Positions 19,491 through 63,077 of a stretch of DNA of 64,000 nt are shown here, piece after piece (positions within the stretch are counted from its first letter, which is position 1; each line of letters starts with the position of its first letter). Position numbers and translations under genes: made by a program. This DNA is from Tridacna crocea (Eukaryota; Mollusca; Bivalvia; Cardiida; Cardiidae): the NCBI GenBank assembly GCA_943736015.1, contig OX031071.1, positions 9,148,119 to 9,212,118 on the forward strand, written 5' to 3'. The notes beneath the pieces are model-generated. The model was not told the DNA's origin. It saw only the letters and a program-made list of their open reading frames with translations, and searched no databases.

Positions 19491-22400
19491 GGTTCCGGGA
19501 CGTTTCGCCCCAAAACCATTTCCTCCCCTAGTCGTTTCGCCCCGAAGACGTTTCCCCCCAGGTCGTTTCCCCCCTGGTCGTTTCGCCCCCACTGGTCATT
19601 TCGCCCCCCTGGTTGTTTTCCCCCTAGTCGTTTCGCCCCCTGTTCAAGAAAAGCTGAATTGCACCTTAGAACTTTTATAAATTTTAATAGCAAGACAATA
19701 TTAAGAAACACAATATGCATTTTTTGGTTTAGCATTTGCATAATTTGGACAATGAGACCCTTATCAAAAATTTAATTCTTATTCGTGTGGTAAAAGGGTA
19801 AAAATTGTTACATTAAAAAGAAAGCAAAAAGCTTCTATTAATTGAAGCATCATCACCCTAGCTTTACAACGGCCAATTTTTCGGTTACTGACAGAAAAAA
19901 AAGGAAGTATCAAGAGTTGCTCAAATTGTGATGTAATTTAATTTTTTTCCACATTGTTTCAAATTGCTTTCTTTCAAGTACCAGGCTATCAACGGTTATT
20001 GCATTTTACCAAAACACCTCCCCTTTTTGTGTTATTTGTACATGGAAATAACAAAGAGTAAAACAAGAGCCATAGTAGATGGATTGTGCTCCCCGAACAA
20101 GGTCTCTGTTTAGGAAAGTGAAAGCTGTCGGTAAATAGTTGGTCACAGGAGAGGAGGGTAGGGGTGAAACAGGCTACTTGTGTTCGGTCCCGTCTGCCAA
20201 ACAGCATTTGCCAATTTTCAATTTACTAAGGGCAATAAGGGCAACAACTTACCATACATTAAGCACCCTTTTCCAGTGGCCGCATGGTTTGACATAGATT
20301 AAAAAAAGGGGGGCACATGTTGAAACTTTTCATAAACAATATGAATGCGAAGATTCATGGAATTTTGACGAAAACTGACTGAGTTATTAGTAGAAATAGG
20401 AATTTTTTTTACAAGACACCCCCTTTTTCCATGACACAGCGTCAAATTGGAAAACCGAGAAAAATACATCGGCGCAAGATCCTTCATATATGAAGTTTCA
20501 TCTAATTTAGTCCAGGGGTTGTGGAGAAATGGCTTCGGACGAATGGAGAGACGAACAGAACGACGCAATCTGGATTGAAGTTCACAACTTTTCTGTATAA
20601 TATCAACCCTTTTTACGATGAACCTCGGAAATATAAATGATAAATCAAGACAGTGAAATCTCTTTACACATTTGTATTTCTACATAAAGATATATAAACG
20701 CATCTATACCTTTTGATAAAAATTGGTGCAGACAATATTGAAAGTAATGCACAATGTGACAAAGGATTACGTAATCAATTAAGCGACTTCACAGTAGCAA
20801 AGTCAAATTGACAAAGATTGCATAATACGTAATTAACGAGTTGATAATCAGTGGCCTAATAGGATTATGACGGCACGTGGTAGCCTTTTGACCAACAACA
20901 CGGTGGACTCTTTCAAGCAGAAAACAATTTTGGGTGTCATTAATCTTTTAAAAGATATATACCTAGAAGGTGAAAGAGAGGTAAAGGCCGAGATTAGGTC
21001 GGCGTCATGTGGTACATCATCTTTGTCTGCTATACGTAGGTGATCAGCATCGTGACAAAAGGAGATACAGTTCTAAATCATTCTTTTCCCTATTTTTTTT
21101 TTTTGTTCTGATTTTTAACCTTAATCTAGAATTGGCTTTTTTATATATACATATATATATAAACTATTGACGGACATTCACGTTTCCTTTGGAAATGATG
21201 ATTCTATTACATACATGTAACTCTTCAATGGCAGTTATATCAGTATATATATTCAGTCTAGTTTTTTCTCGTCATGATTTTTCATTTTACTTTTTGGGTA
21301 AAAAAAAATCTAGCAGATATAATTAAAGAAGTTTAATTTTGCATATAAAACATGCGTTTTCACACCCCAGCATCAGTCACATTCATTGCGCAAAAAACAT
21401 TGCGTGAGTAATAACTCAACCAAATAAACAAGGTGATCAACGGTATCAATGAAAAACCTTAATACTTCAGTTTATTGTATCAAAAGACTATCAAGGACAC
21501 TTACATCAGTAAACATGTAGAGCGGTATCGGGTATATTCGGACAGCTAAGGATTTCTTTTCATAACAATTTTAATTATGCGCGAAACGGGTTTAACTATG
21601 AAAATTCAGAAAACACTACTGTATCCCGTCCTTTATTTTGGGAACTCGGCATTAGCATAACTAAAATGGATGTAATATAAGCTAGCTAAAATGTGAACCT
21701 ACGGAGTTAGTTTTCGGACACGTCTGGAATTTTCGTACAGGATGGAGGGTATATTCGGACACCTTCTACTAGTATTTAAAAAAAAAATAACTCTTAAAGG
21801 GCCTAACCTCCAGATTTAAGGTCACATTTCAAAAAAAATCATGCCTAGTTCATTAATTATAGAGGTGAATGGAAGCATATTGGCATATTTCTGGCTATGT
21901 CTAATGTGGATACTGTCTGCAACAAAATACTTTCACTTACGGTTTTGCGTCGCCATTTTATTCCACTACGCAACGGGGTAGACTTTTCACTAACAGCTAC
22001 TTCTTTATTTCTGAGCCACTCTTGTGATCTTTTTTTACCTCAGAAATACGTCAATATCCATATGAATCGGTATTGGTTGGAAAAACGAAGGACAGTCACG
22101 ATTTTTGCATAATAAATATGCAACATGATTCCTGGTTCGAAAATACCCGACTCCACCAAAATTATGTCGGGTGTTTTCGCACCACTCAGAAAGCAGAATC
22201 GAGTGTAGCTAGAAGAATGCAGACGCTCTGTAAATGTTCTAGGCATGTTTGTTTCTGTAAATATGACTTAGGAATGGTAAAGGGCTGCTTTTTGTTGACT
22301 TATATTGTTAAGAGGTAATCATATTTTTTTAGCGATGTACTTAAAAAAAAAATACTGTACAGTATCTTCATATTATTTTGCAAAATTGTTGTTATTACAT

Positions 22401-22900
22401 GGGCGTGCAGATGACCCGTTAGACGCTTGAAAATAAGGATGATTCGTTTGTGTATTTCTGTTCATCACGTTAATCGAACAATGCTCATAAACGAAATTAT
22501 ACGATGTGTCCGAAAACTACCGATGGTTCGGGAATACCCGAAACCGCTCTATGTATATATATTTTCTTTCTTCTTCTTTTCACAAAATTATGATTCTGTA
22601 GAAGCTAATTAGCTTATGTACTATGTACATGTGGCCTCGATTACTTTATGATTTGAATTAGATCTAATGTAATAATTCTTAATATACGCTATTATTCAAG
22701 AATCTTTGAACCATTATTCTCTTAAGGTGTTCATTGTCTCTCTGCTTCTCTCTTTAAATTATTTTGGGGGCGTAACGACTAGGGGAGGAAATGGTTTGAG
22801 GGCGAAACGACTAGGGTCCGGGGGCAAAGCGACTAGAGGTGAAAAATTGAGGTGAAACGACCAGGGGGGAAACGTCTTGGGGGCGAAACGTCCTGTTACC
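19491..22900. mobile_element. Motif-array element 1 (unit GACGTTTCGCCCC), 3410 bp
   Basis: The left end 19498-19641 carries about eight units of the gtcgtttcgcccc type; the right end 22765-22893 carries the same units inverted. The outermost eight bases are GGTTCCGG on the left and GGTAACAG (complement) on the right, each followed by GACGTTTCGCCCC. Flanks cccagaga (19483-19490) and cccataga (22901-22908) match at 7 of 8 bases, an 8-bp target duplication. The interior has no gene I recognise. It contains a mollusc-type repeat with cggacgaatggagagacgaa (20290-20580) and the inner inverted element at 21517-22552. Superfamily unknown; 8-bp duplications occur in hAT, P, Merlin and Zisupton-type transposons. 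Confidence 0.82.
21517..22552. mobile_element. Inner inverted-repeat element (unit GTCCGAATATACCC)
   Basis: Inverted ends read tagagcggtatcgggtatat on the left and tagagcggtttcgggtattc (complement) on the right. Further units lie at about 21710-21762 (ggagggtatattcggacacc) and 22130-22180 (inverted). The unit has the GWC...CCC skeleton but points the other way from that of the surrounding element. No clean target duplication was found. Confidence 0.6.
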
Positions 22901-22908
22901 CCCATAGA

Positions 22909-23436
22909 TATTGTGAATAGTGTAAATGTAAATAGTTTTAAAAATTCATTGAATAATTTTTTGAAAAACCCAGTAAAGTTTTCACCTGAATGTTATGGGC
23001 CTGAAGCGGGTAATATAAGAAGAAAAGGACCATAGAGGCACATGCCTATGAAGGTCTCTACACAGATAGAAGATGACGTCCTAATTTAGCATTTGTCGTA
23101 AGACTAAGACAGACGGTTTGTGTGACACCGTACACGAAATCATATGAAGCATCTCTCCTATATCTACCAGATCAATCGAAATGAATAGCACAGTGGGCAT
23201 AAAATTTTGTGTTTAACTATAACAGGTGGTGTATGTCGAATTCTTTAACCTTTGTTTGTGGTAAGTCTTCAGATACTGAAATATTCCGTTGCTCGTGCCC
23301 CGAACATTCGGCAAACGCGTCCTCATTATGTGAAGAGCTGATACAGGGAGATAACTTCCTTTGTTTCGGTTTGGTGAAACACCGGAAAGTAATAAATTGT
23401 AACGTTATATCTCTAAACACCGAAATGTAAAGGAAT
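22909..23436. other. Unassigned sequence
   Basis: Frames 23209-23430 (+) and 23217-23420 (-) overlap each other. The plus frame is cysteine-bearing and follows an ataacag that could be an acceptor. No homology or paralogue is seen, so it is not called a gene. Confidence 0.3.
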
Positions 23437-23572
23437 GTTTACTCTTTACCATACAACAAAATTTTGGGCTGTTCCAAATTGGAAACATTTGCAGATTACA
23501 AAACTATTGTGAATCAAATACTGAAGTTTATTTTCGAAGTACAGAAAACATTGTGGGAAAAGGAGAAAATGC
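23437..23572. mobile_element. Hairpin MITE, family A, left half (split)
   Basis: tttactctttaccatacaac through gaaaacattgtgggaaaagg to gaaaatgc, where motif-array element 2 interrupts it. The other half is 27107-27205. Confidence 0.9.
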
Positions 23573-24089
23573 GGGATGCGGTCAAAACGTACCCAAACCA
23601 AAACGTACCCAAAAAATAAGTCAAAACGTACCCAAAATTTAAGTCAAAACGTACCCAAAGTAAAATTTTCATTGAAATAATTTCATTGTTACTTATAGGT
23701 TAAAAACTTCATGTATCTTACCTTTTAAGGATGTTTTAACTCCTGATTCACTTTATATCCTTTTAATTCTTTTAAAATAACGCATGGTTTAAATCCTACG
23801 TTACATTCAGTTCGGGGTGATGTGTTTATATCAGGACTAATCAGGTGTAACAAACTAAGTTGTCATTAACAGTTTTATTTTCGTAAAGGATGATTTACAA
23901 ACATTTGTACACCATGCTACATAGTATTAATTATATTCACCACCCAGCCCCTTTTCAAAGTTAACAAAAAATAAGTTAGATCTAGTCAATTTAAGTTTAA
24001 AATGAAATGTTCAATGATATTTAGCTGAACATGTTTTTTTTTTTTTTCTTTTTTTTTTTCCACCCACAAAAAAATCTCTGGCTACCTTT

Positions 24090-24258
24090 AATTACACAAT
24101 CTGTAGTATTTACAGTCCTTCTGAAAAATAGCTTTTTTACATCATTGTAACAACTGTCTTCCCGTTTCTCACAATGTTTTTTACCCTTCGAAGCCTTATA
24201 TTATAACGGTTGTTTGCAAATGTTTTCAATCTGGAAGATTTTTATTGTAAAAGAGTTA
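24090..24258. repeat. Diverged family A MITE inside element 2
   Basis: ttacacaatctgtagtattt, tctcacaatgttttttaccc and gtaaaagagttaa survive. Confidence 0.5.
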
Positions 24259-25796
24259 AGTTTCCAATATTTTCAGTGCAGAATATGTCTTATAATATTC
24301 ACCCTCTAAATGTTAATATTTTAATTAACTGAAAAATTGTGTAATATGTATACTTGTAATGATAAGAAGATGTAATCGAGTCACCACTCATAGACAACAA
24401 AACTTTCAACAGGAAGAAAAGGAAAATATAAGAAAAATTTCCACCAGAGCATTTAATGAATTAAAAAAAATAAAATCAACCCTTCAGTTTTTCATCTAAA
24501 GCAACCTGTCTCTCAAATCATCAATATTTACAAAGCAATCAAATATATAATCAGGCAATATACAGCAGCTTTAATACCACTGTGAATAATTAATTTATTC
24601 GCCACATAATTATAGTTTATTACCCTCTTTTTGGGTGTGAAAATTGCGCCTTTTGTTATCCAAACAATGTAATTAACGTATCTCATATTTATAAAGGTGC
24701 TAATTCTTATGAAGATTTTTTTTTTCCGATTTTTTTTGTGGATAAAATATATTTAAAATGATGGATAACGATATCAAGATATGTGATGCTTTTCCCCTTA
24801 TGTTTATTGTATTTGCCTAAAAAGAGAGATACACACATTGTAATTTTATCATAAAGCGTTTGATAGACTTAGCTACATGTTCTGTGATATGCTTCATTAT
24901 TTGTTTTAATCATGTAAGGCAAGTTTGAAATAAAGCAGAATTATACCCCGGTCACATATTCACGGAAGGCCGCCACGGAAGAGCTACGGATTCGTTCCGG
25001 CATCGTCCGTGACAACTCGTACTAGTCTGTACCTTTCCGTATTGTAACCGTAGTCATTCGTAGTAGTCCGTGTATATCCGTAGCGGTCCTTGACAATTTT
25101 TGAACATGCACAAAAATTCGCTACGGATCAAACGACCGTAGCGTATCCTTACTAGTCCGTATTAGACCGTACTGATACGTTCTGGTCCGTATTAAAACCG
25201 TATCAGTCCGTACTTATCCGTAGACCCAAACTTTTTCCAGGATTTGATACGGAGAACTACGTGTTAGCACGGTTACGCCACGCTTTAGTTACGGCTATGA
25301 TACGGATTTGTCACGGAAAGTCACGATCTTAATACGTTGTACTACGGATAAGCAGGGATTCGCACGGTCTTTTACGGTTTACTACGTTTCAACACGACAC
25401 AGTACGGAATTGTAAGGCCCACTGTTGTTTGGTAGGATAAATTCAGAATCATTTACTTCAACAAGGGTATTTTTACTCTGTCATTGTAGAATACAACGCA
25501 ATTGCGTTTTGCTGAGTTCACAATCATGAACCATCAACAAATGATGTTTGCTGCAATTGGATATTGATATTGCACAAAATGTCAAGTCACTGGTCCAGCA
25601 GCTTTATGACATACATAGATGTAATAATTGTATTCTTATCGTACTACTAGTAATACCTTTAATTTAAGGTTACATATTTTACAAAACATTGTACGAAAAT
25701 TAATAAACATCAGCATTATAATGTGACATTCTATCCAAACAACGGTGCTTAACATGCAAGTAAAACGATCAAATAGTATGAGAACATAAAACTGTC

Positions 25797-26050
25797 ACCG
25801 TTTCTGGTGGCTCAGGCAACCGCCAAAGAAACGGGAGGTCAAAGGTTCGAGCCCCGCCAGGAGCTTGTTCTGATGTGGCTGGTTGGTGAACCGCCAGCTA
25901 GTTAAATGTATGGTTACTGGTTGCCTGCCTGGTGCCAGGTATTAAGGATAGGAATCGGGAGTAAAGACGCTCAGAGAATGAGGTGTCTCATAAACCCTGG
26001 AGGCTGGCCCTTTCGAAATGGGTGATACTAACTATAATAGATAAGCACTG
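25797..26050 (+). mobile_element. tRNA-derived SINE
   Basis: Pol III box A-like tggtggctcaggcaac and box B ggttcgagccccgcc, followed by a body (ggttggtgaaccgccagcta, tggttactggttgcctgcct). Inserted between the arms of the CCGT-array element. Confidence 0.65.
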
Positions 26051-26139
26051 TACTTTTAAAACATAAACATTCACGATTATCAGTGTAATTGTGAAATAAA
26101 CAGCAGATTTTATGAACATAATAGAAATGTTATTGATCA

Positions 26140-26395
26140 ATATTTTCATTGAACACTTTGCCATTCAATCCCATCTTTTTATGGGTTTGCAACAGACAAG
26201 TCAAGAAAACAATCTGATTCTAGGAAATCGAAAAAAAAATGCTCAAAATGGGCAATTTCTCCATTTCCCACAATGCTTTCTACCTTGTTGTAGAACTGAA
26301 GCTCATTTGTACCAAATTTACAGTTGTAGTCTGCAGATGCTTTCAATTTCCTGGAGGCCAAATTTTGTCAAATTGTCATGGGTTATTGATTATCA
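26140..26395. repeat. Diverged hairpin MITE
   Basis: gccattcaatccc, a short tgctcaaaatgggcaatttc core, tttcccacaatgctttctac and gtagtctgcagatgctttca parts. Confidence 0.5.
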
Positions 26396-27106
26396 GGTAA
26401 TAAAAGACAGAGAATATGTGGACTAGAGATTGGCTTTTACAAAGACCCCTCCATGGCCAGTATGAGGCTCTCATGGCCGAACTTGTTCCATTTCTAAAGT
26501 GAGCAGGCTAGAGGATTTGGACGGAATGCTAAATCGTGGTAGGTCCGTATCGATCCGTGGCGATTCGTAATACTACGTATCGGATCGTTCTTATTCGTAC
26601 TAACCCGTACTTGTACCGTAGCAAATCGTAGTGTATCCGTACTACAATCGTTCTGATTCGTGCCGCTCCGTATTAAACCGTATCCAACCGTAACAGTCCG
26701 TATCTCTCCTGGAACTCTGACCTATATTTTGGCTGTAGATCCGTAGAGCTCCGTACTCAGACCGTTGTGTATCCGTATTGAAACCGTAGTGGACTACGGA
26801 ATTTGACATTTCCGTAGTCATCCGTGAGCGATTAGACCGTAGCTCTTCCGTGACGGTCTTCCGTGAATATGTGACCGGGGCTTAAAAATTATCATCATAA
26901 AGATGGTGAAAACAATATTTCTATTAATTTGTGGAAAGATGTAAGATAAAAACACTATAAAAATCATGGGTACATTTTGACTTCACATTGGGTACGTTTT
27001 GACTCTACTTGGGTAAGTTTCGACTTCGGTTGGGTACGTTTTGACTCCACTTGGGTACGTTTTGACTTGGGTACGTTTTGGTTTGGGTACTTTTTGACTG
27101 TAAACC

Positions 27107-27205
27107 GAAAATGCTGGTTACCAGCATTTTCTCCTTTTCCCATAATGTTTTCAAAAGCTCTCTCTCGGGGTCGTTTGAAGTCGGGATTGTTTGGTAAAGA
27201 GTTAA
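27107..27205. mobile_element. Hairpin MITE, family A, right half (split)
   Basis: gaaaatgctggttaccagca through ataatgttttcaaaagctct to tttggtaaagagttaa. It is the continuation of 23437-23572. Confidence 0.9.
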
Positions 27206-27570
27206 GAAATAGGTAAGGATGCTTAATCACCGGAATAATTCAAAATGTGGATAGTTCAACAATGAAATGTTATGAAGTGTAATTTAACAAGCCTGAATAC
27301 CAGAATATAGCTATCTGAAGTATAAAATCATAACACAGTAGCGAGATTCACTTTCTGATCACCGCATCAGTTGATAACATCGTGACACCGCCTTCTCTCT
27401 AATTGTTTTACTTAAATTGTGCACTTTTTCTTTGCAGTTTTTTCTTTAGTTAGACTAAGCCAAGCAAGGTTCAAATAGTTAACAGTTATCATATTTATCA
27501 TATTCCTAATTTACCCTTTTTTATTGTAATAATTATCAAGAATGTTATAATATGAGTAATATAGGAAAAG
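27206..27570. other. No feature recognised
   Basis: AT-rich sequence without an exon or repeat identified. Confidence 0.4.
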
Positions 27571-27572
27571 GT

Positions 27573-27757
27573 AGTTCAGGTGTAATGCAAAGAAATGAGC
27601 CTCCCCTACAAAATGACCCGGGTCATTATTCTACGTAGAGAAATGACACCAGAAGTCATTTCACTACGTAGAGAAATTACCTGAGTCATGTCTCTACGTA
27701 GAGAAATGACCCATGGATTATTTTGTAGGGGAGTGTCATTTCTCTGCATTACATCGG
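27573..27757. mobile_element. Family F MITE: inverted arrays of acgtagagaaatgaccc
   Basis: Ends gtgtaatgcaaagaaatga and, inverted, tcatttctctgcattacat; inside are repeated ctacgtagagaaatgac units in both orientations. Confidence 0.8.
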
Positions 27758-27834
27758 CAAATATTCTTAAACTACATGTATATCATCACTAATGATGACA
27801 CCATATCAATCAATCGAATGGGTTTTTAATGTGG

Positions 27835-28035
27835 TTAAAGAAATCTCGTCCGTCAGGCGACTCATTTTTTTTTTTTTAACCGCATTACATCCCATTCAAG
27901 TGACAGATTTTTAATATTGCACACAAGAAGTTGATTCTCCTCTATTTGATATATGCGTAACTCAGCTGAGCCTGTACTCTCACAGTAGTATAAACGTAAT
28001 TTGATAAAATCCGGAAATCTACATTTCTCGCGCTT
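27835..28035. repeat. Repeat M, copy 1
   Basis: A T-run followed by aaccg.attac.tcccattc and acagatttttaatat, shared with 34840-35000. Confidence 0.5.
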
Positions 28036-28039
28036 TACG

Positions 28040-28410
28040 CGTTGTCTATAGGCATAATTATGTCATATTCTTCGATGAGTCGACCTGACTTAAATGACGC
28101 ATCACTAGCCCCGATATCGGGCAGACTGTAGTAATTCGCGCTATAAAGTAACAATGGAGAAAATGGCTTTAATCAATACGTTTGAGGAAAAATCAGGCTT
28201 GTTTTAGCCCCAGATTTCTCTAAACTGCTGATCATAGCTGAGTGAATCGCACAAGGTAGCGTTTTATTGAGTAAACGTTTATTTTAGTTTAAAATTCAAA
28301 GTAACGGTTGTCGCGTAGGAAAGTGGTTAATTGGTTCTGTACCCAGGATGCCCAAATCAGATATATGAGTATTTATAGAATGCCATCTAGCGGGAGATAA
28401 TGGCGCTTTA
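28040..28410. repeat. Repeat L, copy 1
   Basis: Shares gtcatattcttcgatgag, gagtaaacgtttattttagt, taacggttgtcgc and gaatgccatctagcgggag with the inverted copy at 35645-36010 and the interrupted copy at 51410-52530. Confidence 0.75.
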
Positions 28411-29240: not shown

Positions 29241-29318
29241 TGTTTACATGTCCCTTTATAAGCCCAGTAGACATCGCAAGTAAATAATATGGTTGTTAGA
29301 ATTTCATGCATTCAAGTT

Positions 29319-30540: not shown

Positions 30541-30775
30541 GGTGTAATGCAGAGAAATTACCCTCCCCTACAAAATGACCCATGGGTCATTTCACCACGT
30601 AGAGGAATGATCCGGGTCATTATTCTACGTAGAGAAATGACCCAAGACTGTAGAGAAAGGACAGTATGGGGTCATTTCTCTACGTAGAATAATAACCCGG
30701 GTCATTCCTCTACGTAGTGAAATTACCCCTGGGTCATTTTGTAGGGAGGGTCATTTCTCTGCAAAAATTTATTTT
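30541..30775. mobile_element. Family F MITE, copy 2
   Basis: ggtgtaatgcagagaaatta start; many ctacgtagagaaatgaccc units in both directions; ends gtcatttctctgca. Confidence 0.85.
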
Positions 30776-33927: not shown

Positions 33928-34188
33928 CTAACTGTCATCGTTTAAATCTGCATTACCCTCAGCAAACATTATCCCTGTCCGGATACGACGACATCGGCAG
34001 CTGTGGCCTCGTGCCTGACACATGTAACCAGGTCTAAGGGTAGAACAAGTCAGACGACGTCCCATTATACCATATACGTCCCTTTCTCGGCAGTCTTGAG
34101 GGCCCCCATCGCATAACTTCAGACGTCCCTCACACAGATATAATGACAATAAAATGATCAATACGCTCAAGAGGAAAATACTCTTCAT
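33928..34188 (-). CDS. Secreted six-cysteine cationic peptide, member 1
   Basis: 86 codons plus stop. The ATG at 34188 lies 7 nt behind a clear 3' splice site (ttatttcattttcag|gataacc), so the open frame upstream of it is intronic and the first exon is probably 5' UTR. Residues 1-21 are a signal peptide (MKSIFLLSVLIILLSLYLCEG). Mature cysteines are at 26, 33, 48, 57, 64 and 66, pattern C-x6-C-x14-C-x8-C-x6-C-x-C, ending in a basic CRCRRIR stretch. The protein is predicted extracellular. The pattern does not match the CS-alpha-beta defensin pattern (no CxxxC), big defensins or macins as I know them. The likely class is a host-defence or signalling peptide (inference). The paralogue at 47.8-48.0 kb aligns without gaps from residue 25 to 57. 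Confidence 0.7.
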   Translation of the reverse strand: MKSIFLLSVLIILLSLYLCEGRLKLCDGGPQDCRERDVYGIMGRRLTCSTLRPGYMCQARGHSCRCRRIRTGIMFAEGNADLNDDS

Positions 34189-34207
34189 GGTTATCCTGAA
34201 AATGAAA

Positions 34208-34570
34208 TAAGAATGTATATTATATTTCATGTGTCTATTTTTAAAAATGTTATGGGTAAAGAAATGTCGTAATTTGAGCTGGGGGGAATTATCTCCCCGT
34301 CACAGTGAATATTTTCCTCCTGCAGAAAATTTGGAACTACTTTTTTTCCGGTTAATTGACTTGAGATCACTAGTTTAGGCATTCGTTGACAAAATAGTTA
34401 TAGGAAATATATAATGTATTTCATTAGCTTGTGGTTAATATGGGGAAATATTTGCCTCAAAAGGGAAAGGTCCTCACGGCACTCCTTATTTTCGCATACC
34501 TTTCCCTTTTTCGGCAAATATTTCCCCATATTAACTACAAGCTGATGAAATAAACTCTATAAAAAATTCA
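34208..34570. repeat. Repeat P, uninterrupted copy
   Basis: atttcatgtgtctattttta, gtcgtaatttgagctggg (the unoccupied site of the 13-kb transposon), cctcctgcagaaaatttgga, then a hairpin: ttaatatggggaaatatttg ... caaatatttccccatattaa. It begins about 12 bp upstream of the 3' splice site of peptide gene 1. Confidence 0.82.
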
Positions 34571-38945: not shown

Positions 38946-39174
38946 TTAACTCATTACCAACCGAGAATATTTTAGGTTTGTCCAAATCAAAAGCATTTGC
39001 AGACAACGAAATAAAAGTGGCTGAAATTTTTAACTTTGTTTCGTGAAGAGAAGAAAACATTGTGGGAAAAGGAGAAAATGCTGGTTACCAGCGTTTTCTC
39101 CTTTTCCCACAATGTTTTCTAAAGGCTTCTTTCTCAGGGTCGTCATAAGTAGGGAGTGTGTGGTAATGGGTTAA
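38946..39174. mobile_element. Hairpin MITE, family A
   Basis: TTAA at both ends; core gctggttaccagc. Confidence 0.9.
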
Positions 39175-44492: not shown

Positions 44493-44765
44493 GTATAAAT
44501 ACCATCCGCTCAACTACCACAAAATAATCATTATGGTCAGTATGGGGATCACATAGATGCTGTTTTATTGTATAGTCACAGGATTATTTTGTGTCACTGT
44601 AAGAACAAAATCATTGTCGTGTGCAGTTGTTCCTGAGAGAACAAATTCCAGGGTGCCTCTGTTGGTTGGGATTCATCAAAAAGCGTACACTGTCAACATG
44701 TTTTTTTTTTTTTATTTTATTGAAAGACTGAATGAACTTTGTAGAGCGAAAGCCAAGGTTTGCCA

Positions 44766-44994
44766 TTAACCCATTACCAAACGACAAAATTTTGGGTTTT
44801 TCCAAATCGAAAGCATTTGCAGACGACAAAATAAAAGTGACTGAAAATTTGAAATTTGTTTTGTGAAGGGTAGAAAACATTGTGGGAAAAGGAGAAAATG
44901 CTGGTTACCAGCATTTTCTCCTTTTCCCACAATGTTTTCTGAAGGCTTCTTTCTCAGGGGGGTCAAAAGTAGGGATTGTGTGGTAATGGGTTAA
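44766..44994. mobile_element. Hairpin MITE, family A
   Basis: TTAA both ends, near-consensus. Confidence 0.92.
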
Positions 44995-45299
44995 GCGATC
45001 GATGAAAGTGTAAATATGGTAGATTTCACTCCATTTTGGAAACTGCTTGCGCAGCACCTTACTGTCCATACAATACTACTCTGTACCGCACTGTCGTATG
45101 TCGTGCAAGATAAGTTCAAGACTCCCAGGCTCATGAATAAATAACTTGATTAGATTATTATATCATAAACTCATCTCTAATGCATAATGGCGGTTCATCC
45201 CCAACCATACATATTTATAACTTCATTAAGACCGACCTTTTCCTGATTCCGCTCTTCTTGGTATATCAAAGAAAGTTCAGTCACAAGACGGGTTTAATA

Positions 45300-47772: not shown

Positions 47773-48042
47773 TTACGACACATTTGTAAGATGGTGTCCC
47801 CCATAGCACTCTTGCAAAGACTTCAAAGTCCTCCTACATCGGCACCTGGGTCTTCTTCTACCAGTTATCTTGCACGAGTGACCAGGCCTAACCTCTGAAC
47901 ATGCTAGATGGTGTCCTCTTGACCCCACAGCAACATTGTCTGTACAATTACGTCCAACCATTTTGCACAGCCTGTAGAAACAGATACCATCTTGGAGGAC
48001 AGCCAGGAAAGCAACCAATAGCAGCATGTACTTCCGGTGCAT
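47773..48042 (-). CDS. Secreted six-cysteine cationic peptide, member 2
   Basis: 89 codons plus stop. The ATG at 48042 sits 8 nt behind the 3' splice site ggttttacag|tacccata, the same arrangement as member 1. Residues 1-19 are a signal peptide (MHRKYMLLLVAFLAVLQDG). Cysteines at 26, 33, 48, 57, 67 and 69 match member 1 at the first four positions, and there is one extra Cys at 21. Shared residues include GR/GS..H-L-x-C-S-x-x-R-P-G and CRCRR. A run of Arg (GRRRPRCRCRR) makes the tail strongly cationic. AATAAA on this strand (complement of 47695-47700) lies about 75 bp after the stop. The upstream exon was not found; a palindromic MITE occupies the adjoining intron. Confidence 0.72.
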   Translation of the reverse strand: MHRKYMLLLVAFLAVLQDGICFYRLCKMVGRNCTDNVAVGSRGHHLACSEVRPGHSCKITGRRRPRCRCRRTLKSLQECYGGHHLTNVS

Positions 48043-48072
48043 TATGGGTACTGTAAAACCTGAAATCGAAAT

Positions 48073-48252
48073 TGAAGCTCCAGATTTTGATTTCAAAATT
48101 GAAAATATGAAATATTCTCCACTAAACCCTATGATGTGGGTACTCATTAGAATCGTCTCATAGAGACGATTCTAATGAGTACCCACAACAGGGTTTCAAA
48201 CAGAAATAATGCATTTAGAATACCATCACTTCTTCTTATCTGAAGCTCCGGT
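48073..48252. mobile_element. Palindromic ~180-bp MITE (copy 2)
   Basis: gaagctccagattttgattt start; centre is a perfect palindrome gattctaatgagtacccac and its inverse; right arm ttagaataccatcacttctt. It sits in the intron immediately upstream of peptide gene 2's coding exon; copy 1 is at 17289. Confidence 0.75.
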
Positions 48253-54070: not shown

Positions 54071-54304
54071 AATAGCAGAGTTCACAGTGATTTATTTTTA
54101 CAAATTTGTGGCAACCCCACCCTCATTGACCCACTTTCAATATTCATTCTGTAATAGATGCATGGGGAGTTACCTGATGCATCAAACCTGGGTTCGGAGA
54201 ATGTTGCATCCGTGGGAAAAAAAACTTTATGAGTCCTAAACAGTTTATATCAATTATCTACATGTTAAGTTCTAAAACTCTAAATTGCTTTTACCGTTTT
54301 TCCC

Positions 54305-54515
54305 ATATTTACACCCTTTATAGCATGAGAAAAAGGTTGACAAGTTCAAATTGAAATTATCTGCAGAGGAACACATCTTTTACTGAAATACAAAATACTA
54401 GTAAATAATAGAATTTGTCTTTGAAAAGGTCAAAACATTGTGGGAAAAGAAGGAAATGGTGGTTACCAACACTTACTTTCTTTTTCTAACAATGTTTACA
54501 AAAGGTTTTATTCTT
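54305..54515. mobile_element. Hairpin MITE, diverged
   Basis: aaaacattgtgggaaaagaa ... ggtggttaccaaca ... aacaatgtttacaaaagg. Confidence 0.6.
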
Positions 54516-54734
54516 AAACTCTTTCCATGGTTTTTAGGTGTCTGCAGTACAAGTCTTTAGAAAACACTGTGGGAAAAGGAGAAATTGCTCGACAAGCAAT
54601 TTCTCCTTTTCCCACAGTGTTTTCAAGCCTATCTGGCAGAAAACTTTCTGCCATTCTCATCAAATTCAAAATGTGATCTGCAAATACTTTTGAGTTTGGG
54701 ACAGTCTGAAATTTGTCATTTGGAAAAGGGTTAA
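54516..54734. mobile_element. Hairpin MITE, family A/B-like
   Basis: Core aattgctcgacaagcaatt between gaaaacactgtgggaaaagg arms; TTAA right end. Confidence 0.75.
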
Positions 54735-54821
54735 GTACCTATAGACACTAAGAAAACATGCAGTTGAGAACATTTAGGAAAATGGGCAAAATGCTGTTAT
54801 CAAATTCCTTGATATAATTCC

Positions 54822-55051
54822 ATTATCTCATTACCAAATGACAATATTTTAGGCTTGCCCAAATCGAAAGCATTTACAGACGACAAAATAAAAGTGACAG
54901 AAAATTTGAAATTTGTTTTGTGAAGGGTAGAAAACATTGTGGGAAAAGGAGAAAATGCTGGTTACCAGCATTTTCTCCTTTTCCCACAATGTTTTCTAAA
55001 GGCTTCTTTCTCAGGGGCGTCAAAAGTGGGGATTGTGTGGTAATGGGTTAT
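54822..55051. mobile_element. Hairpin MITE, family A
   Basis: Near-consensus; ends tctcattaccaaatgac and tgtggtaatgggtta. Confidence 0.88.
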
Positions 55052-55309
55052 GCTATTTTCAGAGTTATACCACACGCAACAAGGCATTCCTACTATGCAC
55101 ATGAAAACTGTATAGTATATATGTATTTCTGACTATACACTTGACAAATGGGCAAATAAATGAACCCAAATTCTTCCTGACATTTGTCTTTTAATAACTC
55201 AAATTTTGTTGGATTTCTAAATTGAAAAGAAAGAAAATTAAATATTGGACTTACTATTTGTCCATATGCATAGTGCACACAAGTACAGAGTTCATTCTAC
55301 AAAAAGTAT

Positions 55310-55885
55310 GATTGATTGATTGATTTTATGGTGTTTAATGCCATTTTCAACATTGTTTAAGTTATATAGCGACAGCCAGTGCACTTATCCATGCTTTCCT
55401 GGAGTTTCTTTCACCAGTACTTCACACAATTTTCTTTCCAAGCTACTGGGTGCTTTCCCATATTATCATTGTCGAAACAATGGTCAGAGGTGTGAGAGGA
55501 ATGAATCCTGTCGCAGTGACTATCATCAATCCTCAAAAAAATATCGGCCAAGTCAGGGATCGTAGCCAGAGATCAAACCCTCTACCCCATGTCAGGCCCG
55601 TCGGAAGAAAATTTCATTTGGTCCGGCCAGTTAGGCGAGCGAGGAAGTTGCAAAGCCATGCTAGGGGGATCCGGGGTATGCTTCCCCGGAAAAATTATGA
55701 AAATAAGACGCTCTCTGGTGCATTCTGGTGCATTTTTGGGGCTTTATATTGCACTTTTTTTTTTTCGAAAATTGGTCCGGCCATTTTTCATTTTTGGCCG
55801 AAAATTTGGTCCGGCCATGGCCGGAACCGCCGGACCGCTTCCGACGGCCTTGCATGTTCTCAAGCCCTGCACGCTACCGACCTAG
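55310..55885 (-). mobile_element. tRNA-derived SINE interrupted by a 260-bp element
   Basis: On this strand: tRNA-like head near 55880-55853 and 55587-55560, body cagtgactatcatcaatcct (complement), tail tcaatcaatcaatc at 55316. Matches the SINEs near 49.1 and 61.8 kb. Confidence 0.7.
55593..55852. mobile_element. 260-bp non-autonomous element, CAGGCCCGTCGGAAG ends
   Basis: Right end (complement) caaggccgtcggaagcgg. Flanked by catgt on both sides (55588-55592, 55853-55857). Internal repeats of ttggtccggccat. hAT5-like by end style and 5-bp duplication; tentative. Confidence 0.78.
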
Positions 55886-55936
55886 CTACCAGGGCTCGGC
55901 TTCAAAAAAGCAAACAGAATACTAAGAACAGAAATA

Positions 55937-56320
55937 TGTCTGCTCTGTGAAAAGGGGACTTAACTCTTTCCCAAATGACAATACTTTAGACTGGTCCAAA
56001 CTGAAAGCATTTTCAGATAACAATAAATGTAACTCAGAAATTGAAATTTGTTTCAAGCAGGTAGAAAACATTGTGGGAAAAGGAGAAAATGCTGGTTCCC
56101 AGCATTTTCTCCTTTTCCCACAATATTTTCAAAAGCTTCTATCTCAGGGACACAAAAACCAGGGATTATTTGGTAAAGGGTTAATGTATCTGCAAAAAGT
56201 TATCCAACAAGGTAAGGCTTGGCATTCCGCCCAGGATGACCTAGCCAAAACATTTTGTTATTGGTCAATTTTCTGAATGTCCAAGGACTCAGAAATGATT
56301 CAGTTGGTTGGTGGACAAAA
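55937..56320. mobile_element. Family N MITE hosting a family A MITE
   Basis: N sequence: gctctgtgaaaaggggact then, after the insert, tgtatctgcaaaaagttatc ... attttctgaatgtccaagga. Confidence 0.75.
55960..56184. mobile_element. Hairpin MITE, family A, nested in N
   Basis: TTAA at 55960-55963 and 56181-56184. The uninterrupted N copy at 32.65 kb has a single gaTTAAtgcatctgc here. Confidence 0.92.
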
Positions 56321-56344
56321 AGGAATTTATTGATCTGTGATCAC

Positions 56345-56572
56345 TTAACCCTTCACCATACGACAAATTTTGGACACTTCCAAACCCCAAGAGTTTGCAG
56401 ACGACAATTTTAGATTAGGAAAAAATGGTAGAAAGTTCTCAAAAAGGGTAGAAAACACTGTGGGAAAAGGAGAAATTGCTCATTACGAGCAATTTCTCCT
56501 TTTCCAACAGTGTTTTCTAAAGACTTTTACTGCAGACACGTAAAAACCAGGGCTTGTTCGGGAGAGGGTTAA
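56345..56572. mobile_element. Hairpin MITE, family B-like
   Basis: TTAA both ends; core aattgctcattacgagcaat. Confidence 0.82.
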
Positions 56573-56606
56573 TGACTTGTTTCGTAAAATGTATCAGTGA
56601 GAGGTA

Positions 56607-56835
56607 TTAACTCATTACCAAACAACAATATTTTAGGCTTGCCCAAATCGAAAGCATTTGCAGACGACAAAATAAAAGTGACTGAAAATTTGAAATTTGT
56701 TTTGTGAAGGGTAGAAAACATTGTAGGAAAAGGAGAAAATGCTGGTAACAAGCATTTTCTCCTTTTCCCACAATGTTTTCTAAAGGCTTCTTTCTCAGGG
56801 GCATCAAAAGTAGGGATTGTGTGGTAATGGGTTAA
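56607..56835. mobile_element. Hairpin MITE, family A
   Basis: TTAA both ends; near-consensus. Confidence 0.9.
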
Positions 56836-57175
56836 GCCCCCTTTTGCCACTGTATGGCTCAGTTGTACATAGACCTGTGCCAATGGTCAGCTGCAGGTTC
56901 TTTTCAGAGAAAATTTAAATTCATAAAAGGGTAAAAAGTGTGTCAAAGATGTAATGAGTTACCTGAACTTCTGGCAAAAGGTCCCTACATCAACTCCCAA
57001 AAAGTACTTAGCAACCTCAGAACCCCAGGATTATGAGCCCTGCAAAAATGGAATTTCGATCTGATCAGGTTGAGTTGTGTGTGCAAAAAAACGCCTACTG
57101 GTTCAGACCCCATGTCGAATCCAGTGTGAACCTTTTTACACACAAAGAGAGACCTGTTTTAGATAACATTTGTGT
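56836..57175. other. No feature recognised
   Basis: No exon or repeat family identified. Confidence 0.4.
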
Positions 57176-57405
57176 TTAACCCATTCCCAAACAATCCTTG
57201 ATTTTTACGGGTCTGGAACAGTAGCCTTCTGAAAACATTGTGGGAAAAGGAGAAAATGCTGGTAACCAGCATTTTCTCCTTTTTGCCACAATGTTTTCTA
57301 CCCTATCATAGACAGAAATCATCTTTTCAGCAAGAGTTGAATTGTTGTCTGCAAATGCTTTCAATTTGGTCTAGTCCAAAAGTTTGTAGTTTGGGAAAGG
57401 GTTAA
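57176..57405. mobile_element. Hairpin MITE, family A
   Basis: TTAA both ends; core gctggtaaccagc; end tttgggaaagggttaa. Confidence 0.88.
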
Positions 57406-57459
57406 GTTAGGTCACTTATAGGTACCATGTACATAATAAATTACAAACTGAGTTTACCA

Positions 57460-57952
57460 GGTCAGATTTAGGGACGAAAAAAAAAATCAACCTTATTCGC
57501 AAAGCCTTTTTATTTTCATTCATAAAACCAAGTAGTCGAAAACCATCCGACAACAAGAGAAATTTGAGATTTACCACGGCCCTGGTCAACACCTACGGGA
57601 AACACTGTCTGTTCTTAGATGAGCAACTCGCTCATTTACAGATGGAAAATACACATAAGAAGCTTCCTGTTTGTTATATTATGGATTTTAAGTGTCATTA
57701 GTCACATGCCAGTCATTCCACATTCCCACAATTCACACATTCCCACTTTTTTATTTTTGGCGAGAAATCTAAAAATACCTTAAGAGGCTATGTAGCCTTT
57801 TAAGGGAACACCATAAAAAAAAAAAATCTTTGTAATTTTGTGATTCTTAAGTTATTGATGATTTGTATTGTTTTTTCATATAAATTTCAGTGATATATAT
57901 ATATATATCTTTTAATTTGGAGAGATGTGAAAAATTTAAATACCCACCTTTA
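57460..57952. mobile_element. Family G element, copy 3
   Basis: Shares cataaaacc..gtagtcgaaaac, ccgacaacaagagaaatt, gaggctatgtagccttttaa and the cccaccttt end with copies 1 and 2. Confidence 0.7.
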
Positions 57953-58211
57953 AGATCTGCTAAGAAAAGATTCTTTACATTTTCAAGTTGCAGCTTATCC
58001 AAGTTGTTTTTAAACTGAAGACTTCATCAAAATGCAAATGCCCTGTCTTTACCCAGCATAACCTGCTTCATTGACTGGAACAGCCTAACACAAACATCTT
58101 CTCCAAAGTTTTTTAAGAAGCAATGGTCGAAACTGTAAAACAAACAATATCAACAATAAATGATATGAAACAAGAGGGCCATGATGGCCCTGTGTTGCTC
58201 CACTGGCCTAT
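57953..58211. other. No feature; repeat head near the end
   Basis: acaagagggccatgatggcc (58170-58190) is a phrase I associate with bivalve interspersed repeats; no exon. Confidence 0.35.
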
Positions 58212-58300
58212 TTAACCCCTCACCACACAAATTGAAGTGTTAATGACCCTGAAAGCGCAGGCGTTTAAAAACACTGAACATTGTCAGGCATTACAAGCAG
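58212..58300. repeat. Truncated family A MITE
   Basis: ttaacccctcaccacacaaa start and aaaaacactgaacattgt only. Confidence 0.5.
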
Positions 58301-58728
58301 GTTTATTCGGTGGCATGAAAGGTCCTTGGAAAAGAAACCTGCATGAACCTGAATGATAGAAACCATACTTTGAATTTAATATTCCACTCATGTGAACATA
58401 AATATAAGGATCAAAATGAATTACTCTCCCTGAAAACAGAATATTTTCTGTCAAAAGACTTAATACCTAGTACCAATCATGTATCACTGCAGTTTGATAA
58501 GCAGTGGAGGTAAATAGAAATAAATATTATCCTTTATAACAGGAGTTACTTCCCTTGATAAATGTTTAATCAATTTGCTGGTAGCCATTCTCATTTTCCC
58601 ACTATTTTTTCTGGAATTTCAAATATAAATTAAAAATTCTTGAGTCACAGTTGTCAATGGTAAGATCTTAAATTTGGAAGTGTCTTATATTTTGTTGTTT
58701 GGTAAAGAGCTCAACAACATCTTGCCAT
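58301..58728. other. Mostly unassigned; one MITE right-hand fragment
   Basis: 58590-58700 has a right-arm fragment ending gtttggtaaagagc; nothing else. Confidence 0.4.
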
Positions 58729-58959
58729 TTAACCCTTTACCACACGAGAAGATTTTAGACTGGTCCAAATTGAAAGCAATTGCAGACGACAAAATAAAGG
58801 TGACTGAAAAACTGAAATTTGCTCTGGGGGAAGGGTAGAAAACACTGTGGGAAAAGGAGAAAATGCTGGTTACCAGCATTTTCTCCTTTTCCCACAGTGT
58901 TTTCAACAGGGTTCTTTCTCAGGGGCGTCAAGAGTAAGGATTGTATGGTAATGGGTTAA
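58729..58959. mobile_element. Hairpin MITE, family A
   Basis: TTAA both ends; core gctggttaccagc. Confidence 0.9.
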
Positions 58960-58980
58960 ATAAGACAACACATAGATCTA

Positions 58981-59190
58981 TTAACTCTTTACCACATGTC
59001 AAAATTGAAAGCATTTACAGATGATAATTTAGATTTGGCTTCAATCATGAAGTTTGTCTTTGATAGGTCTGAAAAAATGGTGGGGATAGGAGAAAATGCT
59101 GGTTACCAGCATTTCTTCTTTTCCCACAGGGATTTCTAAAAGCTTCTTCAGCAAGTCATCAAAACTCGGTATTGTGTGGTAAATGGTTAA
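58981..59190. mobile_element. Hairpin MITE, family A (diverged)
   Basis: TTAA both ends; core gctggttaccagc. Confidence 0.82.
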
Positions 59191-59274
59191 ATACTTCTTT
59201 GTCAAGCCTTCCACAATTGGTCTCCCTAATCAGGATCTGAAAATGTCAGGAAGCATTGTAAGTCTAAATATTCC

Positions 59275-59725
59275 ATTGTAAGTCCCCTAACGGCAAAGCC
59301 TAAGCCCAAGCCTAAGGGGACTTAAGGTTTGCACTCTGTCTATCTGTCTGACAGTCTGTCCGTGTGTCAATCTGTCCATCTTTCTGTTAGGCCGGCAAAT
59401 CATTCTTTAAGACTTCTTTTTTAAAAGCTGGCAAATATTTAGCTGATTTTTGGTGTGTAAGTCAACCACCATGAGTTACAGATCAAGTTCCAGTTTTGTT
59501 CTGGTCCACTGATTTCTGACAAAATTATGGTTTTTTTTTTTCAAGGAAAAAACAGTTTTCCGAACTTTTTTTTTTACATACATGCTGGTAGATATTAAGC
59601 TCGGTTTTGGTGTGCAAGTCAACACCTATGAGGTATAGATTAAGAGTGAGAACTTTTTGTTCTGGTCAACTGATTTTTTACAAAATTACTGGCCTTTGAC
59701 TTAGAAAATTTCAATCAAGAAAATG
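59275..59725. repeat. Mollusc-type repeat with two ~165-bp units
   Basis: agtcccctaacggcaaagcc and tctgtctgacagtctgtccg lead, then two units sharing ggtgtgtaagtcaac / ggtgtgcaagtcaac and tgttctggtc.actgatttt. Confidence 0.6.
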
Positions 59726-59786
59726 TACAATGTGCAATTAGAATGACATTGGCCATGAGTTTTATTACATCTTAAAAAACCCTTAT

Positions 59787-60314
59787 TGTTACGGGAGACC
59801 ACTCCTTCCTGCATGGCATACTTCCGATTTAAATACAATACCTGGCTACTGCGTCAGGAAGATATCTCTTTGGCTCAGTGGTTAGGGTATTGGCTTTGCG
59901 TCCAGGAGTTCGGAGTTCGAATCCCGCTCCGACCCTTATTTCTGCCATGCATTTATTCATTTGTTTCTTTGTTACAGACTTCGTTCGTAAGATGGGGGCT
60001 CGTCCGGGATTGGCCATTGAGCCATTAGTCCCATTTGTTGTCCAAAATCGGACTTCCTGCCTAATAAGGCTTTGAGTCATCAATAAATGATGACTTTAAG
60101 AGGGGGTGTGTTACGGGAGACCACTCCTTCCTGCATGGCATACTTCCGATTTAAATACAATACCTGGCTACTGCGTCAGGGAGATATCTCTTTGGCTCAG
60201 TGGTAAGGGTATTGGCTTTGCGTCTGGGAGTTCGGAGTTCGAATCCCGCTCCGACCCTTATTTCTGCCATGCATTTATTCATTTGTTTCTTTGTTACAGA
60301 CTTCGTTCGTAAGA
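59787..60314 (+). mobile_element. TRIM-type short LTR element, copy B
   Basis: Two 206-bp LTRs (59787-59992, 60109-60314) and a 116-bp interior with a tRNA-Pro type primer-binding site (tgggggctcgtccgggat) and a polypurine tract. It is flanked by ttat on both sides. Same family as copy A at 44 kb; structurally whole, non-coding and young, as its LTRs are almost the same. Confidence 0.9.
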
Positions 60315-61516
60315 TTATGTCCACAATCAATTAATAAAAACCTAATGTTACATGTACTACAGAAATCCAAATACCATTGATTATCAGAAGCTAATGACAA
60401 CACTATCCCCTAAACATTCATAAAATTGTCTTAGTTTGCATACGTCATTTATACAGCTGTTTAGTTGAGATTAAGAAATGACAGACAACCCACCCCAAAA
60501 ACAACTCGCCCCTTGACAACTCGCCATACATTTAGAACACAAGTCACCCCAATTTTATGAAAACATGGAATAGTTATACACTTAAGAAAACTCGAAAATT
60601 CTTGCCCAACTTAACAAACTTTACAAAATATAGCAGAATTTACATCCCATACATGAAAACAATTATAACTTCATGAAAATAACAACCTACATGTAACCAC
60701 AGGAATTTGACAAAAAAATATGAAAAAAAAAATTTTCCCCTATATAATATAAACAGGTGTTTATATTATATGGCAGTGGCTAGAGATACGGTACCGTACC
60801 TCTAGCCTATATCAAAGAAATGGCTAGAGATACGGTACCGTAGCTCTAGCCCCGAAGTCTAAAGATACGGTACCGTATCTTTAGTCATTCTTATGATATA
60901 GGCTAGAGGTACGGTATTTGTAGATACATGTAAGAAATTATAAATTTACTTCAGTTTTGATTATTGTCGTTATTAGTATGGCTTAGTATCAATCTCGACA
61001 TCAAAGGACAGAAACTCATTGCAGTGTGCGAGTTTGCATCGATGCGCGAAAATAATAATTGCGTTAATTAGTTAGGTGAATTTAATTGTTTAAGATGTAT
61101 GCGGATCTAACATTATTTTAACTTTTGTTGTTCTTTAATTGATTATGGAAAACGACATAATTAATCAATTACTCAATCACGGAAATTGATAATTAATCTA
61201 TTACTCAATCACGGAAAAATTTCTGAAAGCACTTTCAAGCCAATTTTGTATCATACGGTCAAAATGTCTCATAGTATTCACGTCGGGAAGAAATTTGAAG
61301 ATTTTCAAACATTTAAAAGAGCAATTTAGAGTGCTATCAAAGTGCAGAAAGTATGCAGTTTTACTAGAGGGATTCTATGACTATACAAAAAGCCCAGCCG
61401 CGCGTACAAACAAAACTAAAAAAAAGGATAAAGTATTACGGGATATCGCTTTAAATACTGTATTCATGGTGGCAAGAATTTCAAAGCCAGAGGGACAGGA
61501 GTGACAGAACAAAGGT

Positions 61517-61543
61517 TATCTGTCTGTCTGTCTGTCTGTCTAC
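61517..61543. repeat. TGTC microsatellite
   Basis: About six ctgt/tgtc units. Confidence 0.8.
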
Positions 61544-61764
61544 CATCAATGTATTTATACTTATTAAGTTATTTTATCTATTCATTTATTTATCTACTCT
61601 TGGGTTGGGAGCGGTGGATAGAGTTGCGTGTTTAGCACAATTCGAACTGAAATTTGGTGTGGGCTATTGCTTATGTATGGTAGAAGCAGAATTTTACGGC
61701 ATGAATTATATATAAATATTTATTGCAAACATTAAGGCCAAAAAATAATGTGAACAATGATTTC

Positions 61765-61985
61765 TTTTAACCAGTTCTCCGCACAATATTCTTTCCAAGC
61801 TACTGGCTGCTTTCCCACATAACTATCGTCGAAACATTGGACAGCAGTGAGAGAGAAATGAATCCTGTCGCAATGACTGTCATCAATCCTTGGAAAGTTT
61901 ATTAGCCGAGCCGTGGATCGAACGGCGATCTCCTGTTCTCAGTTTCGGTACGCTATACCGACTGAGCACTGGGCTAGGCCTGCAC
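61765..61985 (-). mobile_element. tRNA-derived SINE, truncated
   Basis: On this strand tRNA-like cagtcggtatagcgtaccg and gttcgatccacgg, then the body shared with 55.3 kb. A second tail fragment lies at 62010-62158. Confidence 0.65.
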
Positions 61986-62154
61986 ATGGTTGTAAATAAC
62001 TTTAGGAATTTGACTGAATGAATGGTGTTTAACGCCGTTTTCAACAGTATTTCAGTACTTTTGCATCGGCCAGTGCACCTATTCATGCTTTCCTCTAGTT
62101 TTTATAACCAGTACTCGGCACAATATTCTTTCTAAGCCACTGACTGCTTTCCTA

Positions 62155-62326
62155 CATGCAGTACAAGTCCTTTGAAAACACTGTAGGAAAAAGAGAAAAT
62201 GCTAATTTCTCATTTTCCAACACTGTTTTCTACCCTTTTGGATGACCATTTTCCATCATTTTTCATCAAAATTTAAATTGTTTACAAATTCTTTGAGTGT
62301 AAAATTTGTCTTTTGAGAAAGGGTTA
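62155..62326. mobile_element. Hairpin MITE, left part missing
   Basis: gaaaacactgtaggaaaaag arm, short loop, inverse arm and TTAA right end. Confidence 0.65.
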
Positions 62327-63077
62327 AGCAGGGATAATACATATGTTATGTAGAATCCCTGGGTTAAGTAATCAAGTTCACCTAATAATCAACGCAATTA
62401 TTATTTTCGCGCATTGATCAGTGCACAATCGCACACTGCAACTTGATGAGTTTCTGTCCTTTGATGCCGATCAATATTACTACAAATACATACTAATAAC
62501 GATAATAATCAAAACTGAAGTAAATTTATAATTTCTTACATGTATCTACAAAATACCGTACCTCTAGCCTATATCATAAGAATGACTAAAGATACGGTAC
62601 CGTATCTTTAGACTCCGGGGCTAGAGGTACGGTACCGTATCTGTAGCCATTTCTTTAGTATAGGCTAGAGGTACGGTACCGTATCTCTAGCCACTGCCAT
62701 ATTATATAGGGGAGAATTTTTTTTCTTCATATTTTATCATTTGTTTTGGTTATAAAATGTCAAATTCCTGTGATGTAACGGACACTAATCTGTTTCAAAA
62801 TGGACAATTTTAATATACACAAAAATAATTAATTTGATATATAGAATTTAAAACCACACATTTGAAAATAAAAACTGAATAAAAGACATGTATAACAGTT
62901 GTAGCTAGACATCTATCTGATATACCAACAGTAATAAAAGTGGGCCGAGTTGTCTAAGAATTTAGGGCCAGTTGTCTTCTGACTTTGCGGCCAGTTGTCT
63001 TGGGGCGAGCTTTTTGCGGAGCGAGTTCTCCTGGGGCGAGTGATCTTTGGGGCGAGTTGTCCTGCCCCCAGATTAAG

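Follow-up and report, generated by a model that had tools for sequence, protein, structure and literature searches.

Three large insertions lie in a 64-kb stretch of the Tridacna crocea genome (C16:9148119-9212118, hereafter the window; the assembly has 1.05 Gb in 31 contigs), and the question that they raise is what kind of enzyme moves them. The insertions, E1, E2, and E3, were found to share one architecture, just as the original prediction from the sequence had claimed: all three end in inverted arrays of a 13-14-bp unit that is specific to the element. E1, E2, and E3 are very probably non-autonomous members of three foldback families of Mutator-like elements (MULEs) of the Phantom/Muta type, moved by a transposase carrying a FLYWCH finger and a MULE domain.

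Borders and arrays of E1, E2, and E3

The borders and duplications predicted for the three elements were re-read, and all were confirmed (Table 1). Read inward, each end starts with the 8-bp duplication, continues with a tip of 8 bp, and then runs into the tandem units; at all six window ends the tip was 8 bp long and the first unit started from base 9. The tips had been described as often beginning with GG, and five of the six do, the left tip of E3 being aaatgaca. The two window duplications of E1 agree at 7 of 8 positions, and those of E2 and E3 are perfect on both sides.

The surroundings of E2 were examined further. E2 lies in a palindromic repeat of ~230 bp, which starts with TTAACCC and has the core palindrome GGAGAAAATGCTGGTTACCAGCATTTTCTCC; examples are found at 44763-44999, 39035-39107, and 54912-54984, and a 73-nt stretch of the core occurs 34 times in the window with at least 60% identity. 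When the flanks of E2 were joined and one copy of the duplication was removed, bases 1-226 of the 251 aligned with other copies of the repeat at ~80%. The best blocks spanning the junction were gapless, 68-69 bp long, and up to 97% identical; owing to the palindromic core of the repeat they lay on the opposite strand, and on the same strand the copy at 44855 agrees in its letters with the joined flanks. Many relatives of the palindromic repeat split by E2 are intact, and the borders of E2 are therefore proved.

The arrays were counted with up to three mismatches per unit. The predicted four to eight units were present at every end, in inverted orientation (Table 1), and the window also had scattered single matches at this threshold outside the arrays. 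In five order-1 Markov copies of the window, each motif had 0-2 matches when up to two mismatches were allowed. A skeleton common to the three units, predicted as GWC...CCC, was indeed present, and its exact form is better written GWCnnnnCGnnCC. The agreement among the three consensus units was matched by only 1 of 20,000 letter shuffles.

To see further copies, we took seven of E1 (the best of 40 scored) and three chosen long copies each of E2 and E3. The borders, whose failure to recur would have spoken against a single class, recurred in all 13. The seven E1 copies had perfect duplications, 8 bp in six and 9 bp in one, and tips that differed from those of the window E1 by at most one base. 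The three E2 copies had perfect 8-bp duplications, one tip beginning with C. In the E3 copies, the duplications were also perfect, one of 8 bp and two of 9 bp, and the tips were GGGTGCAG and GAATGACA, of which the window E3 tips are variants; two of these copies (L061 and L062) resemble the window E3 in little beyond the ends. Thus, the 8-bp duplication claimed for the elements held in the window but not always, since three of the 13 further copies have perfect 9-bp ones. The number and spacing of the units varied within a family in the E1, E2, and E3 copies, a variation more in keeping with binding sites that act additively than with a single fixed site.

The window E1 and E2 are longer than usual because they contain nested elements. 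The one at 21518-22551 was missing from all seven further E1 copies (2401-2698 bp), and its sequence (query 2028-3061) was matched alone, at 92-99%, at nine places among the matches listed. The limits of 24944-26881 are the breaks of homology between the window E2 and two of its long copies (L055 and L056). By eye, this nested element holds dense ~10-bp units of the CCGTA type in both orientations, and looks like a second kind of array-bearing element with a 3-bp duplication.

Adjacent exact unit pairs were then sought in the whole genome. There were 266 for E1 (with the shorter CGTTTCGCCCC), 748 for E2, and 191 for E3, and the three reversed-pattern controls gave 0 each in 1.05 Gb. The orientation was read from 100 of the 266, 100 of the 748, and 100 of the 191 matches, which merged into 98, 63, and 53 arrays. 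Among these, neighbouring arrays within 8 kb faced inward in 32 (E1), 21 (E2), and 14 (E3) cases, 67 in total, and none faced outward or lay on the same strand; the median spacing of the paired arrays was 2.2, 1.5, and 2.2 kb, respectively. Mixed arrays would have argued against one motif per element. CGCCCC followed by an E2 unit within 10 bases was found 0 times in the 1.05-Gb genome, as in the control, and the reverse order, in which an E1/E3-type unit follows an E2-type end, was found once, inside an E1 copy, compared to four times in the reversed-pattern control. For the two E2-combined patterns searched, one motif per element therefore holds, and together with the recurrent borders it supports the predicted single element class.

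MULE genes between ends of the same build

The genome was searched with PF10551 (the MULE domain) and FLYWCH, giving 61 and 47 matches, respectively, which stand side by side in several families; most of the MULE genes have a FLYWCH finger. We inspected 30 of the MULE places together with 1.5 kb of flanking sequence at either end, as well as nine longer stretches of our own choice. Arrays were seen at 18 of the 30 places, the array at L034 being part of an E3-type element next to it. The motifs and the family labels (F1-F9) were assigned by hand from the array-bearing MULE loci. In four families with a MULE gene, F5, F4, F6, and F3, both ends were measured; all four combine inverted arrays on a GAC...CCC skeleton with G-initial tips of 8 bp and a duplication of 8-9 bp that is perfect (Table 1). 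The duplications were found by seeking perfect 7-10-bp repeats at all borders up to 40 bp outside the arrays, in which the chance odds of a 9-bp match are ~0.007 by our own arithmetic (43 x 43 / 4^9). The direct repeat in all four is 9 bp long and can be cut in several ways, and the cut giving two 8-bp tips works for each. At one F5 locus (L044, ~2990-3040), an F9-type array directly abuts the end of the F5 element, as would result from the insertion of one foldback MULE into the terminus of a second.

E1-E3 and the MULE elements agree in cut distance, duplication length, orientation, mostly G-initial tips, and units. The identity between the E1-E3 units and the six MULE-linked units was 0.58, a value that none of 20,000 letter shuffles of the E units reached. 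Across the nine motifs, position 3 is C in all, position 1 is G in eight, and positions 11 and 12 are C in eight, as judged from one self-chosen consensus per family, F1 and F9 being registered by GAC with their border distance unmeasured. The statement that no named group has this description cannot be kept, because Muta and Tm1 are built in this way and this same genome contains MULE genes flanked by such ends. The element class is an already known one, the Phantom/Muta type of Mutator foldback. The terminal motif followed by an inverted array of 9-15-bp units, which marks MULEs of this type, was found at all six window ends; their 8-10-bp duplication was represented by perfect 8 or 9 bp in all 13 further copies; and in related elements ends of this kind enclose a FLYWCH-MULE, recognised by Pfam in F5 and F4 and by the FLYWCH and MULE matches in F3.

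The proteins were examined accordingly. P0001 (F5) and P0002 (F4) have both the FLYWCH and the MULE domain above the Pfam cut-offs, F1 also has a FLYWCH domain, and FLYWCH matches adjoin MULE matches in F3 and F9. In P0001, motifs of a DDE triad are found, by our own reading, at D210, D270, and E411, like the residues named for Muta1 in the part of its account that was available. The named sources among the 120 relatives of P0001 listed are crustaceans, a gastropod, an insect, a springtail, and a nematode. The F5 open reading frame (ORF) of L051 recurs at 12 other loci with 99.1-99.7% identity; L036 and L051 are a single place, the match at L048 is split in two, and that at L037 is gapped. Of the 13 F5 loci from L036 to L048, nine retain the 515-aa frame in full. 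Given the near-identical ORFs at 12 other loci, machinery of this kind was recently active.

The original prediction had the motif switched and homogenised element by element; the constancy and the change were rather family by family. Units of the expected family were present in 37 of 40 stretches (39 places) and none in the other three. Four of the 37 also hold F9-type units, in arrays of their own that lie next to or within other elements and are not mixed. Between families, F6 and F9 are 63% identical in the catalytic core and have related but different units (0.69), and F5 and F9, with cores 49% identical, have the units that differ most (0.38). The unit core can therefore change fast. It is possible, if doubtful, that the FLYWCH-MULE families kept the frame (8-bp tip, GAC...CCC edges, 8-9-bp cut) and swapped the unit core in step with the FLYWCH finger, so as to be mutually deaf. 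If true, a single animal genome would offer a natural series of zinc-finger/site pairs that have been re-coded.

Table 1. Parts of E1, E2, and E3 (window positions) and the ends of MULE families elsewhere in the same genome; array units counted at up to three mismatches
Feature	Position	Strand	Particulars
E1 left target duplication	19483..19490		cccagaga
E1, foldback element, non-autonomous	19491..22900		3410 bp with nested element; basic size ~2.4 kb
E1 left array	19499..19639	+	8 units of GWCGTTTCGCCCC
Dispersed element nested in E1	21518..22551		~1.03 kb
E1 right array	22767..22892	-	6 units
E1 right target duplication	22901..22908		cccataga
Palindromic repeat (~230 bp) interrupted by E2, left part	23438..23572		ends with gaaaatgc (23565-23572)
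E2, foldback element, non-autonomous	23573..27106		3534 bp with nested element; basic size ~1.6 kb
E2 left array	23581..23656	+	4 units of GTCAAAACGTACCC
Element nested in E2	24944..26881		1.94 kb; TTA flanks; ends CCCCGGTCACATATTCACGG; CCGTA arrays (by eye)
E2 right array	26968..27098	-	7 units
Interrupted palindromic repeat, right part	27107..27206		begins with duplication gaaaatgc
E3 left target duplication	60468..60475		agattaag
E3, foldback element, non-autonomous	60476..63069		2594 bp
E3 left array	60484..60550	+	4 units of GACAACTCGCCCC
E3 right array	62942..63061	-	7 units
E3 right target duplication	63070..63077		agattaag
MULE family F5 (L051, 502-aa ORF)			units GACGTTTTGGCCA; duplication GCTTACACT; tips GAATGTAG, GGAGGACG
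MULE family F4 (L052, 535-aa open frame)			units GACAGTTCCCCGA; duplication ACAAAAAT; tips GGGAACAA, GGTTTCAA
MULE family F6 (L053)			units GACAATTGCCCCT; duplication GTTAACTAG; tips GGTGTACG, GAGTGTAG
MULE family F3 (L050)			units CCCATTTCGCCCA; duplication AACCGAAAC; tips GGTGTCTT, GGTTTATT
MULE family F1			units GACATCTGCCCCC; arrays seen at one end
MULE family F9			units GACAAAACCCCCC; arrays seen at one end

The source of the transposase and the remaining features of the window

The arrays of E1-E3 are plausibly bound by a transposase. Most likely, a FLYWCH-finger/MULE transposase encoded elsewhere in the genome would move E1-E3, each family presumably having its own. The FLYWCH domain would bind each GWC...CC unit, several transposase molecules loading per array, and the two inverted arrays would then synapse. 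The catalytic domain may cut 8 bp outside the first unit, at the usually G-initial tip, and the element would insert by a staggered cut leaving an 8-9-bp duplication.

Several observations weigh against a FLYWCH-MULE transposase as the source. In the sample of MULE loci, 12 of the 30 had no arrays within 1.5 kb, and no array was seen in three of the longer stretches (L054, 8 kb; L059 and L060, ~5 kb each). When a transposase was sought between exact E arrays, in array lists of 100 of 266, 748, and 191 matches and with no long E1 copy included, six long E2 and E3 copies (L055-L057 and L061-L063) had no MULE match inside, except one to a miniature inverted-repeat transposable element (MITE). At L049, an E3-type array stands beside a MULE fragment, but the gene is outside that E3-type element. 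F6 has MULE but no FLYWCH among the matches listed. Small comparisons of the motif with the catalytic core (rho 0.12, exact p 0.28, six families only) and with the FLYWCH domain (rho 0.08, p 0.38, five families, two with a stop shown as X) gave no clear sign of co-variation either way. Moreover, in the part of their paper available, the Tm1 authors doubt DNA binding by Tm1's own finger (PMC3169594). When the MULE proteins were compared with the window itself, the only matches were weak ones and those to a MITE sequence that the frame of L048 contains.

The interiors of the long copies hold other sequences. Reverse-transcriptase-like frames were seen by eye in one long E2 copy (L057). The E3-type L063 has a ZSWIM3_N exon at 4066-4473 (46 bits), and a broken relative of this exon lies at window positions 61165-61632, between the inner inverted repeats of E3; Pfam gave no match for the two window pieces tried from it.

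The best of the alternatives, though very unlikely, is that E1-E3 come from a different superfamily in which the duplication is 8 bp long (hAT, P/Galileo, Zisupton, or Merlin) and acquired their arrays by convergence. Duplications of 8 bp are common to these superfamilies, and the long ends of Galileo, in the portion of its description available, are internally repeated with extra transposase sites. However, perfect 9-bp duplications occur among the further copies as they do in the MULE-bearing elements of the same genome, and the unit skeleton and the 8-bp tip match those elements as well, the transposase searches of the genome having covered the MULE and FLYWCH domains. hAT elements have an 8-bp duplication and ends of the CAGGG kind; a CA start was absent from all tips read of E1-E3, the further copies, and the four MULE families.

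It is very unlikely that E1-E3 form a separate foldback lineage, like the TU elements of sea urchins, which is mobilised by an unknown enzyme and not by FLYWCH-MULEs. The E3 copies do have mixed middles, as TU elements have. Nevertheless, MULEs with like ends are present in the genome, so that no unknown enzyme is needed, and the TU elements may themselves be MULEs. Finally, the chance is next to nil that unrelated insertions merely carry selfish minisatellites or replication-type repeats as their arrays and share a skeleton by accident: E2-like paired units, iteron-like by eye, do occur in nine virus-like contigs, but the exclusively inward-facing pairs, the fixed distance of the first unit from the border, the empty reversed controls, and the skeleton agreement beyond that of letter shuffles all oppose it.

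The paired units in the virus-like contigs (E3 0, E1 1, and E2 9 matches) look by eye like short iteron-like clusters and were dropped as unrelated. The nine contigs (L002-L010) hold direct pairs of CAAAACGTACCC, 22-23 bp apart, which are plasmid-iteron-like and close to the E2 unit; this likeness is probably a coincidence.

The window has further features. Two similar small cysteine-rich ORFs with signal-like starts lie on the minus strand at 33928-34299 and 47773-48171; neither had a Pfam match, and the latter had no homologue either. Two copies of a self-complementary MITE of CTACGTAG/ATGACCC units, recognised by eye, are at 27579-27760 and 30541-30765, and a tandem array with a 156-bp unit (8.3 copies) occupies 7980-9275.

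Comparison with known foldback systems

The sea-urchin TU elements have tandem repeats of ~15 bp in inverted outer domains, 8-bp duplications, and unlike middles; E1-E3 resemble them in these features of build. Literature on TU, foldback, or FLYWCH MULEs and literature with the unit letters gave, judged by titles, no paper on such elements of bivalve kind in the former and none on such elements in the latter. The bivalve transposon survey, in the part available, reports MULEs in all molluscs examined and does not use the word foldback.

Galileo, of the P superfamily, and Tetris also have foldback ends, and their internal repeats are thought to be extra binding sites, according to the accessible part of the account (PMC4079207). 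They differ from E1-E3 in that the Galileo repeats are bound by a THAP domain and the Tetris repeats are ~220 bp long.

Tm1 of root-knot nematodes is closer. As far as the portion available shows, it is a Mutator/Foldback element of the Phantom subclass with mostly 9-bp (8-10) duplications, unlike 7-bp end motifs, a variable number of 13-15-bp units, and a 496-aa FLYWCH-MULE protein (PMC3169594). Unlike E1-E3, Tm1 has one motif family, its printed unit is not GWC...CC in that register, and its duplication is usually 9 bp.

The Muta1-14 families of Aedes aegypti, Mutator-like elements of the Phantom group, have the same build, again as described in the part of the paper available (PMC5225508). 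All 14 families have 8-9-bp duplications, 10 of the 12 long-ended ones have subterminal tandem repeats of 9-15 bp, and 13 of the 14 have a FLYWCH finger. Muta1 begins with a 10-bp and Muta5 with an 8-bp terminal motif, each followed by nine units (12 and 15 bp, respectively); non-autonomous copies with mixed interiors occur, and Muta1 was classed as a type-2 foldback (PMC5225508). A MULE survey, in the part available, assigned Muta to Phantom. The likeness compared here is that of build, and E1-E3 differ from Muta in their host, in their shorter arrays (4-8 units), and in the many motif versions on one skeleton.

What the accessible parts of the Muta and Tm1 accounts do not report is the specificity with which a FLYWCH finger reads DNA. 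Compared with these systems, the coexistence of many repeat versions in one genome is notable here: six MULE-linked and three non-autonomous unit motifs, nearly all on one frame. With so many motif versions and near-identical open F5 genes, this genome is a good place to learn what the FLYWCH zinc finger reads.

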